64,000 nt of DNA from Hesseltinella vesiculosa (taxonomy: Eukaryota; Mucoromycota; Mucoromycetes; Mucorales; Cunninghamellaceae). The notes below the pieces were generated by a model. It was given only the letters and a program-made list of their open reading frames with translations, was not told the DNA's origin and made no database searches. Below, piece by piece: positions 1 to 8,443 of this stretch. The stretch spans positions 1-64,000 of the forward strand of contig MCGT01000022.1 in the NCBI GenBank assembly GCA_002104935.1, written 5' to 3'. The position numbers were made by a program, and so were the translations under genes. The stretch's first letter is position 1; each line of letters begins with the position of its first letter.

Positions 1-952
1 GCCACAGCTGTCAATATCATCACCACTGGATCTCGCAAGTACACCCGACGTTGCCGAGACAAGCGTAAGACAAGGAAAAATCGGAAGCAACGAAAGCGAC
101 AGATGCAACGAAAATGGCATACTCGTTTGTTGCAAATCAAGGATGAGTATAGCAAGACGAAATCACGCTTGGAAAATCTTCGGCGCTTAAGCGAACGACA
201 TGATGAGTTGATGGACCAGATGAAGCGCATAACCTTGGACCAGCCACTTGGTATGCACCCTGAAACTCGACCCGAAGAAGGACCAGCACCAATTTGCTCG
301 AGAAATGAACCATGCACTAGATCGACATGGCACAGCGCATGATCTTGCTACAGCTGCCATTAACACCGAAATTGGAGCCTTGGAACACCATCTCGTGTCA
401 CTCCAACAAAAATACCTCGACCCCCCTCAGCAACCAACGTAATACAAAAATGGGCTATTTGCATTATCTCACGCTCCTTTTTATGTATACTCTAGCCGCA
501 TGCGAGCCAGCAAGTTGCCATATCACGGCTCCCAACAAACAGTGGATGGCCTGCCACTGATCTCGTTCGGTGATGCCATGGTTGGTCGAGATGCCCAACA
601 TTTTCGTGGGCACGCAGTGGGCAGAACGAACAACATCAGACAGCACTTGATCAAACGACAGCACCAGGCGTTGTGCATGGTTGCCCACACCAACGAGTTC
701 TGGACCAGCCAGGTAAGATGGCCAAAAAAAAAATAAGAGCGTGGTGGGCATATCTAATTTGCTTATCCAAACTAGAACTGCAGCACCTGTGGTGGGCAAC
801 TGTCGCCCGTGCGCACGCAAGATCAGTCGTCGATCTTTGCCTTGAAGTTCTGCACCACTTGCCAAATGGTGTGGGATCGAGACGTGTCCGCCGCTGCCAA
901 CATGTTCTGGATTCTTAGGCGTAAAAGTCGATTACGTCGAGCCATAAGGTGA
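1..952 (+). CDS. Fanzor-like (eukaryotic TnpB-family) nuclease, 3' part, frame-broken
   Basis: Only the C-terminal part lies in the window; the RuvC-I region is upstream of base 1. I read exons 1-438, 496-712 and 776-952 (stop TGA 950-952), with introns 439-495 (gtaata..tag) and 713-775 (gtaaga..tag). The spliced C-terminus has the family signature: NEFWTSQ, then CSTCGG, about 25 residues later CTTC, then WDRDVSAAANM. This is the TnpB/Fanzor zinc ribbon followed by the RuvC-III Asp. An upstream block (ISFGDA, then GRTNNIRQ) matches the strand before the ribbon in the second copy. The part after RuvC-I is very basic and helical. Reading moves from frame 1 to frame 2 between about 207 and 340 without a good intron, so the copy is probably broken. 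It is strongly diverged from the copy at 1616-4749, so it is not a recent duplicate. Confidence 0.75.
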
Positions 953-1615
953 GGTGTTTGACGTTCGAGCACCGAGGGACGACTTCGCATGAATCTCTGG
1001 GCAGTATCTTTTGCAGGAACTGACCAATTCTGGAGTAGAGGTGTTGGACAAACTCTGGGATAGACTCAGGGTGGGGTTTCGCGCGCCAACACGGGCTGAG
1101 GCCATGAGAGGAGCCTAATCGCCATTAGCATATGAGCAGGCGATCTGCTGCCGTGTGCGATATTTCAATTTCAGGAGAGTGAGCCTATTAGACTTTTACC
1201 TGGCCATCGCAGTGCAAAATGAAATTACATTCTTTTTTTTTTTTTTTTTTTTTTTTTTGAAACCACATTCTGACTCTGATTTGCTTACCGTGATTAGCGA
1301 AGGCTCGGTGGAGACACAGAAATAGCGAAGCAGCTGAAGGGGAGCTGCTACCGTCTATGAATTTCAGATGGTCGAACTAAATAATCAACGAGGTTCAGTG
1401 TCCACCGCTCGTAAAAAGATGCAGAGGAAAAGCCCATGGGCACAAAAAAAAAAAGGTGAAAATCACAACCCACGCCTCGCCCCTTTCTAGTTTTTTTTTT
1501 TTTGTTTCACGTTTTCCTCTTCTTTCACCTTTTTTTTCCACTTCCCAATCCCTGTCATCTCTGCTAGTACTTTTTCGATTTTTACTATTCCTCATCTTAC
1601 CCTCTACTGTTGAAT
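953..1615. other. Spacer between the two Fanzor-like genes
   Basis: No gene seen. It holds a T run of about 28 bases near 1231-1258 and pyrimidine-rich tracts at 1490-1560 just before the next gene. Around 1115-1155 there is a small inverted repeat (ATCGCC / GGCGAT around a 16-base loop). In TnpB-type systems the guide RNA often starts at or just past the 3' end of the nuclease gene, so this stretch is a candidate for a guide RNA scaffold or element end. The sequence alone does not prove that. Confidence 0.3.
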
Positions 1616-4600
1616 ATGGACACCGTACAGGAGCAGCGAATATACTTGGAAAGTTTGAAAAGAAGGAAAATACAACGACGCGAAGAAGAAGAGCAAAGAG
1701 GTAATAGGCGCAGTAAAACAACAAAACTAGATGAGCTGAACAAATGCTTCATTTCAAAACATACAGGAAGAGTACCTTGCCCAAGATGCGGTGGATCAAA
1801 CCATAATAATGCAAGATCTCGTCTCTGTCCTTTCAATCGTAAGTCAATCTGAAGAGTGCCTGGTCTAATTTTTTTTTTTTTTACTGAAGGCTATTTCGGG
1901 GTTCCAACGGCAGCCATGGTTCGGCAGCAGAATAGACAAGGTCGGGCCGCTGGACAAGAGCGGCTTCGTTTGGAGCAAGCCAACCCTGATGTTCCACGCT
2001 GTCAACGCTGTATCCTTCCCGATGGCACCAATGATGGCTGTCTGCACCATGGCAACACGGCAAGCCACCTGTGCCATGCACACAAGACCAGCATGGATGA
2101 TATTGTCAATAACGTCCTTGGTCCAAGGTACCATAGCTTTGTGCGACGATGTACGTTGAAGCGAACACTGACTTGTTTTGGTCGAACCCGGCGCCAGCGA
2201 CTTTCCGCAAAAATCAAGGTTATCCGGGAGGTTGAACGCGTAGTCGATCATGTGCGCAACGTGTCCATCAAGGCCATGCTCTTTGTCCAACACCATGTGC
2301 TCAAGATGCTCAGTGCCGGCGAACCAATCCCTCCAACGCTTGGCATGCAAGGGTACGTGTACGGGGTGATGCAACTTGTCATCGGCAAGCAGGTCACGAA
2401 CACCAACCCCAACTTGCCTCAGGACGCCGCGACTGCTTTCCAAGCCTATGTGGAACAATTCGACGCTGCCGGTCTTCCAACTGTTGACCCCCTTCCCGGG
2501 TACTCGCAATGCTATGCGCATATGGCCAAGACTCTGGCAACAACAATCAAGGACTGCCTTACCGAGGCATTTGAGCCTCGCTGCAAGGCATACATAGCAT
2601 TTAAATTGCGTACCTTGATCTCTCGGACTGTAAGTGGGAAAAAATAGGAGTACAGGAGTGACGATCTCTAATATACTTGTATATATATATGAATGATGCA
2701 GGACAAACCAAAAAAGAAGGAGCTCAAGAAATTGGTGAACTATGTCTATTCCAAGCTATCTGGTGAAGACCCCGCCAATGAGCCAGCCTATGCTCGCCAA
2801 TCTTGGGAGCGAGCTGTAGTCACAGTTCTGGAGACAACTTCCCTTGGTCCACAACCAGTAACTTTTGAAAACTTGACAGCCAAGTTTTATGAATACCTCC
2901 CAGTGATGTACAAGTTCCTAGGTAAATATACATAGAGCCTAGTCTGCAAGAAGATGGCTCATTTTTTTTAAAAGAGGAAATGGAAGCACACAGCACAGCA
3001 CAAACTGGCCAGCCATCCGAATGGGTCATTGTTGACGAAGCTGATTCCCAATACTGTCGTGAACTGTTGGGCGCAGTGGGTGGATTTGACGATCTTGGAC
3101 GACGACAGAAAGCACAGGTTCAGCGTGCCACGCATAAATTCATGAATAGCCCGGCCCTCCCACTGAACTTTGGTCCCCGTATGGAAGACGATATGCGCCA
3201 AGCCATCACAGCCTTGATTAGGGCGACACGCTTTCAACTATCGATGTCCCACCAATACCTGCAAGGCAATGACTTGATCGACCCGTCGCTCTGTTTCAAA
3301 TCCCAGTCAGCCTCGCTCTATCAAGCCACAAAAATGTACACCCTCCTTCCAACCCTCCGCTTTACACGCAAGTTCATCACTATGGATCATCAATGCTGGT
3401 CCCGAGTATTCTCTCAAGCCGGGGTGCAACCAAGGCTAGTTGACGACCAGCTGTTTTTAACCCAGCTTGGAGAACACACTCAGCAAGAATCTGACCTCCA
3501 GCAAGTCGGGAAGAAGTTCTTAGTGTTTTGGAAGACGCTCAACTTCAAAAAAGCGAACCTTAGCAAAGTGTAAGTTTGGAAGTGGCAAGGAAAAAAAAAG
3601 TGGTTAGTGCAGACTTTTTACTCCTTTTTGTCGATAGCTTTGACACACTAGGCACTTACAACACAGATCTCCCTCCTGAAGAAACCGATACCGCGTTCAC
3701 CAACTTGATTCGAACGGACGGTCATACAGTTGAATTCATTTGTTCGAAGAAAGCTGCCGAATTACTTCCTGACTTGGTGATGAGCGATCTGGATGATGAA
3801 GACATGGAAGTTTTTAAGCCTATGGGTGTGGACCCTGGACACTCGGTGCTTTTTACTTCAATGGATACCAATCGCCAATGCCTCCGACTCACAAATCCTG
3901 AATTTTACCATCGCATCGGGCACATGCGCCGACGATACACACGCCAGAACAACGCCGAGCAACTTGGCATCAATTCTATCATTTTCAATCCTACCGACCA
4001 AGAAAACCATCTCTGTTCCAAGGTGGATGGCCTATTGCCGTCAACTATGCCTTTGCCTGCCTTCCCTGACAAATTTCTACGGAAGTGCATTTACCAACAA
4101 TCGCTTTCTTGCATATGTCAGCAAGCAGAAGATACTGGATGAAGCTGTGAACATCTTTGTATCAGGCGGTAGGAAATACAAGAAAAGCAAGGCTAGGTAA
4201 GCTAGAGGTGTGGGGGTGCGTAAGTGCAATGGAGCAATATTGCTCATTTTTATTTTTAGGAGGGGTGTGGATGTGGACGACGACGAGAACGACGAGGGCG
4301 ACGAAGACGGCGAGGATGAGCGTCCAAATATACCATTGCTTATGCTTGGATCAGGTGTCTTTGGTTTCACTCGCCAAGGGAAAAAAACCCGTATGTCGAT
4401 CATCCCGAAACTGAAGGCAGCCGAAAAGGAGGGCCGTCTGCTTGTTTGTGTGGTGAACGAAGCGTACACCAGCCAGGTAATAGTGGCAAGACATGGACGG
4501 TAAAAAAAAACGAGGGCTCATAATTATCTCTGGTTGTAGGTTTGCTGCTTCTGCCATCACCGATCATTATCCACGAAAAGAGCACTGGATCCACTGACGA

Positions 4601-4749
4601 ACGCTACCTTTGGTCTTTGGGCTGTCAAGTATTGCCGGGTGTGCAGGACAAACGTGAACCGAGATAAGTCAGCCGCCACCAACATCCTCCACTTGGGCTT
4701 GCGTGAACAAGAGCACCTGGATCGGCCAGCTGTGTTTTGTCGCCATTGA
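1616..4749 (+). CDS. Fanzor-like RNA-guided nuclease (TnpB family), near complete, one frameshift
   Basis: Exons: 1616-1838, 1890-2629, 2702-2921, 2975-3569, 3638-4196, 4260-4476, 4540-4749. They total 2764 nt, which becomes 921 codons once a single surplus base is allowed near 3990. Upstream of it the frame is open through GINSIIFN; downstream the +1 frame continues PTKKTISVPRW and FYGSAF, the region that follows RuvC-I in this family. Visible parts, N to C: a basic N-terminus; a CPRCGG..H..CPFN zinc-knuckle-like motif; CQRC/CLHH/CHAH cysteines and histidines; a helical middle; RuvC-I with MGVDPG; GSGVFG; NEAYTSQ; zinc ribbon CCFC..CRVC; RuvC-III NRDKSAATNI. Fanzor proteins are known RNA-guided DNA endonucleases in fungi and other eukaryotes. 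The catalytic Asp residues and a candidate Glu are intact, so decay is recent, or the extra base is an assembly error. An acidic linker (GVDVDDDENDEG) precedes the ribbon. Confidence 0.85.
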
Positions 4750-5598
4750 AACCCAAAAAGGTTTTGTGCTTACACTATCAACAGAGTAGATAGCAATGCT
4801 CCTGGTGATTATTGTTGGTCCTCTAGTAAGTCATGAAAAAGCGCGGAGTCAACAAAATACCCACTCATTTTTTATTTTCTATAGGGTAACTTCTCTCAAC
4901 GCAAATCCATGAAAGATACAGTGCGCTGACCAATTTCCTCTTTTGTTTTGTTGCTTCATTCTCGGTATCCCTGCAACTTTTGCTTTTTTCGCGTCATCCC
5001 ATATTTGACTTTGCGTTGGGATATTTGGTAAGCGGTCTGGTATTCGCCACTCTATACTAAACTTACCCCTCGTATTTCTATTTTTATCAGATCTTTTTGT
5101 GACATTTTGTTTCTTTCACTTACGACATTACTTTGTGAATAAAGTGTACTCGCACCTTTCAAAAAATTGGGTACTTCAGTGTCTTCACCATCTACCACCC
5201 AAATCAAACCATTTTGGTAAGCAAGAGCCAAACAACCCAGCCATGATTAAGCTTGTCCACGATGCTGAATTAAGCGACGGAAAACGCCTTGGTACCACCG
5301 AACTTAAGACCCTTCTGTGATTTTTAATCTTTAGCCATGCTCCAGAGCGAAGAAAAAGCGCCTATCCATATCATTCTATGGCATGCGCCTTGTGTAAGTA
5401 AAGCCTCAATGTCACCAGGGTGGGCGACGGAGAAAAAAAAACTAAACCTCCCACAAACTCACATGACCACGGCCTGCTGTTTGACGTTGATCGGCAGCGC
5501 AACAAAGAAAGGGAATCGGGCGCTTTATTTTCCGCACACAGCTGGGAATGGTATCAAACACGTTTCCATTTCAAATGGTAGTGCTCGTTAAGCAGAGT
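4750..5598. other. Gene-poor spacer after the Fanzor-like gene
   Basis: Short ORFs at 5099-5320 and 5337-5591 show no recognisable motif, and I do not call them genes. A spliced-looking gtaagt..tatag pair occurs at about 4827-4885, so the Fanzor transcript may carry a 3' untranslated intron, or a guide RNA locus may lie here. No terminal inverted repeat matching the 5' flank was found by eye. Confidence 0.3.

Positions 5599-7105: not shown

Positions 7106-8443
<1,338 letters not shown>

Follow-up and report, generated by a model that had tools for sequence, protein, structure and literature searches.

A recently broken Fanzor-like gene in a TA-flanked composite transposon of the mould Hesseltinella vesiculosa

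The first 64,000 bases of a Hesseltinella vesiculosa contig (bases 1–64000 of C15, in a genome of 27.05 Mb and 85 contigs; hereafter the window) carry at 1616–4749 a gene, g2, that by its sequence encodes a Fanzor/TnpB-like protein, in a copy recently broken by a single base. It lies near the right end of a multicopy, TA-flanked transposon that also holds remains of two older nuclease genes, g3 and g1. Taken as a whole, the explanation that we regard as probable is that g2 is a recently inactivated copy of a Fanzor-type gene in an element that a transposase supplied in trans inserts into TTTA, and that is retained by RNA-guided cutting of the empty allele. Why eukaryotic transposons carry and keep RNA-guided nucleases is an open question. 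This one genome makes it testable, with three nuclease lineages behind related ends, preserved intermediates, copies that are still unbroken, empty sites that can be recovered and a predicted target-adjacent motif (TAM) of four bases; it is also a source, in a mould, of large Fanzor-type enzymes that are very divergent.

Structure of g2 and its unbroken siblings

The gene has eight exons, all on the forward strand: 1616–1700, 1767–1838, 1890–2629, 2702–2921, 2975–3569, 3638–4196, 4260–4476 and 4540–4749, the last with the stop codon. The seven exons of a first-pass annotation splice to 2,764 nt, which is 3n+1, as that annotation stated; their first hid a 66-nt GT–AG intron (1701–1766). This intron is recognised because the 22 residues encoded there are absent from the gene models of two H. 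vesiculosa database proteins, P0001 and P0002, on comparison with the window gene, and because the TGA of the sibling copy C12a lies within it; exon 1 is drawn from the same sibling comparison and gene models. The stop once read into the coding sequence of C12a was dropped when the intron was recognised around the TGA; the intron's length is divisible by three and leaves the one-base surplus unchanged. The N-terminal and C-terminal parts of g2 are open in different frames, and the switch falls near 3990, where it had been placed, in exon 6 (exon 5 of the seven-exon model). There the window copy differs in length by one base from all seven aligned siblings, each of which lacks the extra base, in agreement with the single-base insertion proposed at the outset; the base is either private to the C15 copy or an assembly error.

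Seven siblings repeat the window's share of the element at 95–98% nucleotide identity over 3.4–5.1 kb, and g2 is therefore not a product of chance. Two of the siblings, both on C2 (C2m and C2p), are truncated and align poorly at their 5′ ends; a ninth, more diverged copy of g2 on C67 stands outside the eight-copy alignment. The eight exons read through in three of the eight copies (C12a, 898 residues; C12b, 901; C41, 898), the two C12 copies lying at C12:458753–466975 and C12:1090396–1098615, and the frame is not open throughout in the window copy, C13, C59 and both C2 copies. Nonsynonymous-to-synonymous ratios, counted with the C2 copies left out, are 0.20–0.39 for the ten pairs among C15, C12a, C12b, C59 and C41, and 0.46–0.64 for the five pairs that include C13; an earlier count with the C2 copies gave ratios of up to 0.79. 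By these ratios the g2 siblings are under purifying selection. Together with the recent one-base break and the three unbroken copies, this upholds the view that the gene was functional until very recently, or else that the base is an error. The two C2 copies lie head to head at C2:379462–386289 with their right ends outward, possibly as an inverted dimer with two right ends.

Family placement of the g2 protein

All the motifs reported earlier are present: RuvC-I as MGVDPG (3822–3839), RuvC-III as NRDKSA (4657–4674) and a zinc ribbon with two CxxC pairs (4543–4560 and 4630–4647). Exon 2 additionally encodes an N-terminal zinc-knuckle-like motif, CPRCG...H...CP (1778–1804 and on). The RuvC-II region in exon 7, LLMLGSG, has no glutamate; a repositioned glutamate stands instead in NEAYTS (4450–4470), six residues ahead of the ribbon (NEAYTSQVC), and in P0001 six residues likewise separate E803 from the first ribbon cysteine, C810. 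A glutamate six residues before the ribbon is a Fanzor hallmark (PMC10711439). The spacing is the same in g1 (NEFWTSQNC, joined across an intron) and in g3 (NEARTSMTC). The DPG motif reads GVDPG in g2 and GIDPG in g1, which also has WDRDVSAA; g3 has TDYG instead.

The zinc-ribbon part of the placement was borne out by Pfam PF07282 (cut-off 26.3 bits), which scores 30.2 bits on the window protein, 30.3 on P0001 and 28.7 on P0002; sub-threshold TnpB matches from NCBIfam and transposase-family matches from PHROGs fall on the same region of g2. In a database of 5.8 billion proteins, the window protein, a P0001/P0002 profile and the C-terminal region of P0001 found only P0001 and P0002. The first two of these searches scored 7,999 and 7,994 word-sharing candidates and could reach only relatives that share short exact words; the absence of g2 relatives outside H. 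vesiculosa is weak evidence. The viral contigs searched held no g2 relative, and pieces of g1 and g3 matched solved structures with E values of 0.24 or worse, none of them a nuclease of the Fanzor kind.

A composite transposon with conserved ends

Window positions 1–5148 form the right-hand part of the composite, which runs on the forward strand and has its left end beyond the contig start. A complete sibling (C12:458753–466975) measures 8,223 bp, with TTTA and the right TA counted, and the order from left to right is g3 remnant, g1, g2. In all seven siblings the alignments that reach the right end stop at window position 5148 or 5149, and the longest extend toward the left edge of the window. 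The start of the element is for this reason no longer placed near g2.

The right-end module (5016–5148), a candidate omega-RNA scaffold, has relatives at the right ends of elements that carry other nuclease genes. It contains a candidate 63-nt intron in the 3′ untranslated region (5028–5090, GTAAGC...TACTAAAC...TATCAG), drawn by eye and from the alignment, and closes with the terminus GTGAATAAAGTG plus TA (5135–5148), within which AATAAA occupies 5138–5143. All eight copies, the window's included, have the same right end, save that C13 ends in GTTTA and not GTGTA. The terminal repeats are inverted and imperfect (TACAGC... and ...GTGTA). By the Tc1/mariner-like marks of TA duplication and inverted repeats, the element is a TA-flanked inverted-repeat DNA transposon, and the right TA could be either duplication or element sequence, the data being compatible with both. 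A 47-bp locus elsewhere (L082, C41:76066–76112) consists of little beyond one left and one right end fused together, with TT before it.

The locus had been put forward as the most likely undescribed system here. It belongs, as a single copy, to a multicopy H. vesiculosa transposon, and Fanzors in transposons of Mucorales are known (PMC3627910). That first account lacked the second Fanzor-like gene at 1–952, one of the eight exons, the limit of the element at 5148 and the sharing of ends with other nuclease lineages.

Possible nuclease turnover behind related ends

The second, older Fanzor-like gene, g1, is represented in the window by its 3′ part (1–952, forward strand, identified by tblastn and alignment), cut by the contig start and lying upstream of g2 on the same strand. 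It has frame changes near 272–279 and a zinc-ribbon exon at 776–952, with a weak PF07282 score of 22.8 bits, under the cut-off, and its similarity to g2 is weak but collinear (phmmer 35.9 bits, in a set of four sequences). Seventeen bases present in three g1 copies (C35, the start of C12, and C23) are missing from C12a, C12b, C59, C7 and C51, and C13 is rearranged at this site. The loss breaks the g1 frame in C12a and would do so in the other copies as well; in the g1 stretch compared, C7 and C51 match C12a at more than 99% identity. The shared loss argues that g1 was therefore probably broken before the composite spread.

Searched against the genome, the left end gave 24 matches and the right end 14. 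Elsewhere in the genome related ends, left or right, border g3 genes, pairs of g3 remnant and g1, g1, and g2. Over their 134-bp right ends, C12a and C2m differ from C57, an element of the g3 lineage, by no substitution and two gap columns, and from the sibling C41 by 15 substitutions; over the 800 bp preceding the right end, C12a and C2m differ from C41 by only 11 and 9 substitutions, respectively. Left ends before another g3 group (C2, C85 and others) are 83–84% identical to that of the composite, and the first coding exon of the C2-group g3 corresponds to the 62-residue remnant, with stops, that stands between the left end and g1 in C35 and in the composite. In the part searched, the g3 genes of C57, C34 and C8 share 41–46% identity with that of C2; since the two groups are so distant, ‘g3’ denotes a broad lineage, and its ends are traced on the left for the C2 group and on the right for the C57 group. 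A pattern search for right ends returned 53 right-end-like matches, a minority of them inspected individually, against 7 in a reversed control.

Several loci preserve parts of this layout. On the minus strand of C23 (647.6–641.8 kb), a left end (647482–647625) is followed by g3 fragments with stops (646205–647237), g1 (643787–645026), a zinc ribbon (642317–642487) and a right end (641826–641842). C12:28–5315 reads, from the contig start, g3 fragments, g1, ribbon and right end; C33:107.2–102.3 kb (minus strand) has g3 fragments, a g1 relative (58–63% identical) and a right end; and C35:50701–55187 has a short g3 remnant, g1 and a right end. A left end, g3 fragments and g1 also follow one another at C23:364.7–370.0 kb and C51:98.6–102.8 kb, and g3 fragments and a g1 relative at C64:6.8–9.6 kb, these three having no right end in the pattern-search list. 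At seven places a left end is followed by g3 (C1, C2, C7, C18, C33, C34 and C85). C8:369918 to about 374187 (4,270 bp) is a g2-type element that has no g1 match and ends in GGATAAAGTGTA.

This layout fits, and suggests, a replacement order g3, g1, g2, with the newest gene nearest the right end. We put at about even the chance that one transposon frame has undergone at least two nuclease replacements (g3 to g1 to g2), newcomers settling beside the right end while older genes decay behind them and right-end modules pass from one element to another that carries a different nuclease. If so, transposons keep renewing their RNA-guided nuclease, and one nuclease may use the right ends of other elements. 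Genome-wide there are 46 PF07282 matches, and 123 g1-like and 103 g3-like stretches, counted exon by exon; to judge by these counts, Fanzor-like genes have greatly expanded in this genome, and several of them stand at contig starts.

A TTTA preference at insertion sites

Of the 23 left junctions examined, 20 have TT ahead of the terminal TA or its equivalent; 17 of the 23 came from a left-end pattern search, one is C13 and five are of g2-B type. C13, which has one extra T, is scored as TT, and L080 (C23) and L081 (C37) have TT before a TA altered to TG and CA, respectively. A binomial figure of 3e-20 for this preference is a rough guide, with junctions taken as independent and the base composition of the window used. 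On the right the preference is not mirrored: AA follows the right TA at 0 of 15 junctions (C57 and C34 share one flank).

Two insertion sites can be reconstructed. The C12a left end borders a tandem array of ~335-bp units (L039:610–2758), and the copy sits at a GTTTA there; all six un-inserted satellite units compared have GTTTAC at the same point. With a single TTTA set between them, the flanks of C12b match 14 places of a dispersed repeat besides themselves; 13 of these were compared, the fourteenth (C42) covering the left side only. All 13 align through the C12b junction with no gap at it, L085 and L091 having small gaps no more than five bases to the right of it, and at the four bases in turn the repeats have mostly G, then T or C, then T, then G or A. 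By this alignment the empty C12b-type site is continuous, with four target bases in place and no length change, which is consistent with a TTTA derived from the target. The two sites together indicate that the TT before the left TA is target sequence; the exact word TTTA before insertion is visible in the satellite only. A query with the C35 empty site found no un-inserted paralog. The dispersed repeat (L083–L095, CTTCGCTCGGCTGCC...GTCATTTCTC) was apparently struck by two elements, C12b and C7, at different points.

Proposed guide RNA and mechanism

A transposase supplied in trans would move the element into TTTA sites; the nuclease would bind an RNA whose transcript covers the right end and extends into the host flank; nuclease and RNA would then cut the empty allele at 5′-TTTA followed by the flank sequence, and repair of the cut would copy the element back. 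In its g3 remnant, decayed g1 and g2 beside the right end, the element would also carry a record of nuclease turnover. In the Spu-1 element of Spizellomyces punctatus, CA is conserved before the left repeat, the TAM is CATA, and the guide RNA spans the right end and continues 14–15 nt past it (PMC10432273). By analogy with this conserved CA and TAM, we predict a TAM of 5′-TTTA and a guide that takes its sequence from the right flank; in the window this guide would be encoded by host DNA at 5149–5168 (forward strand; compare SpuFz1, PMC10432273). The right end is conserved across nuclease lineages. Speculatively, its AATAAA might set the 3′ end of the transcript slightly inside host DNA.

Six open reading frames (ORFs), five upstream in the element and one of g3, have no Pfam transposase match. 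No transposase with the element's ends was identified in a scan that did not take in every frame of each element, and 12 exact left-end matches are nuclease elements over the stretch covered. Matches to DDE_3 number 164 genome-wide.

Points against, and alternative explanations

Several observations weigh against a recently inactivated nuclease gene in a trans-mobilised, TTTA-targeting element. Profiles recognise the zinc ribbon alone, and the RuvC domain of g2, the other part of the earlier placement, was found by motif only. No Fanzor or TnpB is among the solved-structure matches of the g2 protein, and an AlphaFold2 model of P0001 from a two-row alignment (P0002 being the other row) has a predicted local distance difference test score (pLDDT) of 35.7. 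The P0001 spacings of 185 residues from DPG to E and 26 between the CxxC pairs exceed a published search pattern (120–160 and 12–18; PMC10711439), one written for TnpBs and not as a family definition. Right-end RNAs fold no better than shuffled sequences (z = −0.71, −0.27, +0.46, −0.19 and −1.17), contain no compensatory pair on covariation analysis and have no Rfam match. Three of the 23 left junctions are without TT (C9, AA; C23B, TG; C8B, AA and no TA), the right flank of C12a is not satellite, and the exact word TTTA is absent from all 13 un-inserted repeats, GTTA (L086) and TTTG (L090) coming closest. In addition, DDE_3 fragments lie 0.3–2 kb outside the known ends of, or to the left of, four g2-B copies: 0.3–0.6 kb outside at C1:4053, C8:374731 and C23:1270110, and ~2 kb left of the g2-B gene C45:583789 at C45:581520. 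Another (C34:703843) lies 4.8 kb right of a g3 left end and beyond that g3 copy, whose right end is untraced.

The great sequence distance of these proteins, the lack of a detected structured right-end RNA and the g3 lineage with TDYG in place of DPG would fit proteins that have lost RNA-guided cutting and now serve as ordinary DNA-binding accessory proteins of transposons. We consider this improbable, as P0001 and P0002, 57% identical in their alignment, share all three acidic catalytic residues, which g1 has as well. Somewhat less remote, and still unlikely, is that TTTA reflects the preference of some transposase only, the nuclease being a passenger and making no use of a TAM here. Target preferences are known for DDE transposases, and the many DDE_3 matches make a source in trans plausible; the one-sidedness of the preference speaks against a passenger nuclease, with TT on the left and no matching AA on the right, as does the same layout in a characterised relative, Spu-1 (PMC10432273). 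As for the extra base, its being a sequencing or assembly error in an intact C15 copy would suit the position of this copy at a contig start and the open coding frames on either side of the frame change. Yet 17 codon changes are private to the copy (7 synonymous and 10 nonsynonymous, in a count that still included the intron 1701–1766), against 2 each in C12a and C12b, 4 in C41, 8 in C59, 9 in C13 and 12 in C2p, but 47 in C2m, and small frame-breaking indels occur likewise in C13 and C59. We therefore doubt an error, to about the degree that we doubt a passenger nuclease, and favour a genuine recent break.

Comparison with known Fanzor elements

Among the closest parallels is Spu-1, which encodes SpuFz1, a Fanzor1 (PMC3627910, PMC10432273). 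Like the element described here, it is multicopy, with inverted repeats and putative TA duplications, has two conserved bases before the left repeat and no transposase found between the repeats, and occurs also as elements without the gene. It differs in size and content (2.1 kb with one gene of one ORF, as opposed to 8.2 kb with the eight exons of g2 and two older, decaying nuclease genes) and in the conserved bases, CA there and TT here. The chimeric Fanzor elements of slime moulds (DFa-1/2/3 and PPa-1/4/5; PMC3627910) similarly combine common 5′ parts with different Fanzor-encoding 3′ parts, but are of Sola2 type, with 4-bp duplications stated for PPa. A word search of the available text of PMC3627910 found no description of stacked or neighbouring Fanzor genes. 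Within Mucorales, MCi-2, MCi-4 and MCi-5 of Mucor circinelloides are likewise Fanzor1 elements; unlike the present one, they have duplications of 11–12, 9 and 6 bp, MCi-2 and MCi-5 are without recognisable inverted repeats, and some contain part of a Crypton (MCi-2A) or Harbinger (MCi-5) transposase (PMC3627910). To any solved Fanzor, g2 has no detectable sequence similarity.

Parasitella is a further genus of Mucorales. PpFz1 of Parasitella parasitica is a Fanzor1 with demonstrated DNA cutting; it differs in its TAM, ATN, and in a RuvC-insertion domain found by its authors only in Parasitella and Rhizopus (PMC11423790), and the solved-structure matches of g2 include no Fanzor chain to set beside it. 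In one place PMC11423790 swaps the TAMs of SpuFz1 and GtFz1 relative to its remaining text and to PMC10432273, which we follow. A literature search for Fanzor together with Mucoromycota, beyond whose reach most subscription papers lay, gave no match, and the Hesseltinella literature within the same reach included nothing on Fanzor, judged by title or the start of the abstract.

Surroundings of the element

About 2.2 kb to the right of the element, an ORF at 7318–7896 resembles a protein arginine methyltransferase. Just beyond the right edge of the window lie a DDE_3 transposase fragment (C15:64081–64215) and, on the minus strand, another zinc-ribbon match (C15:64672–64884).

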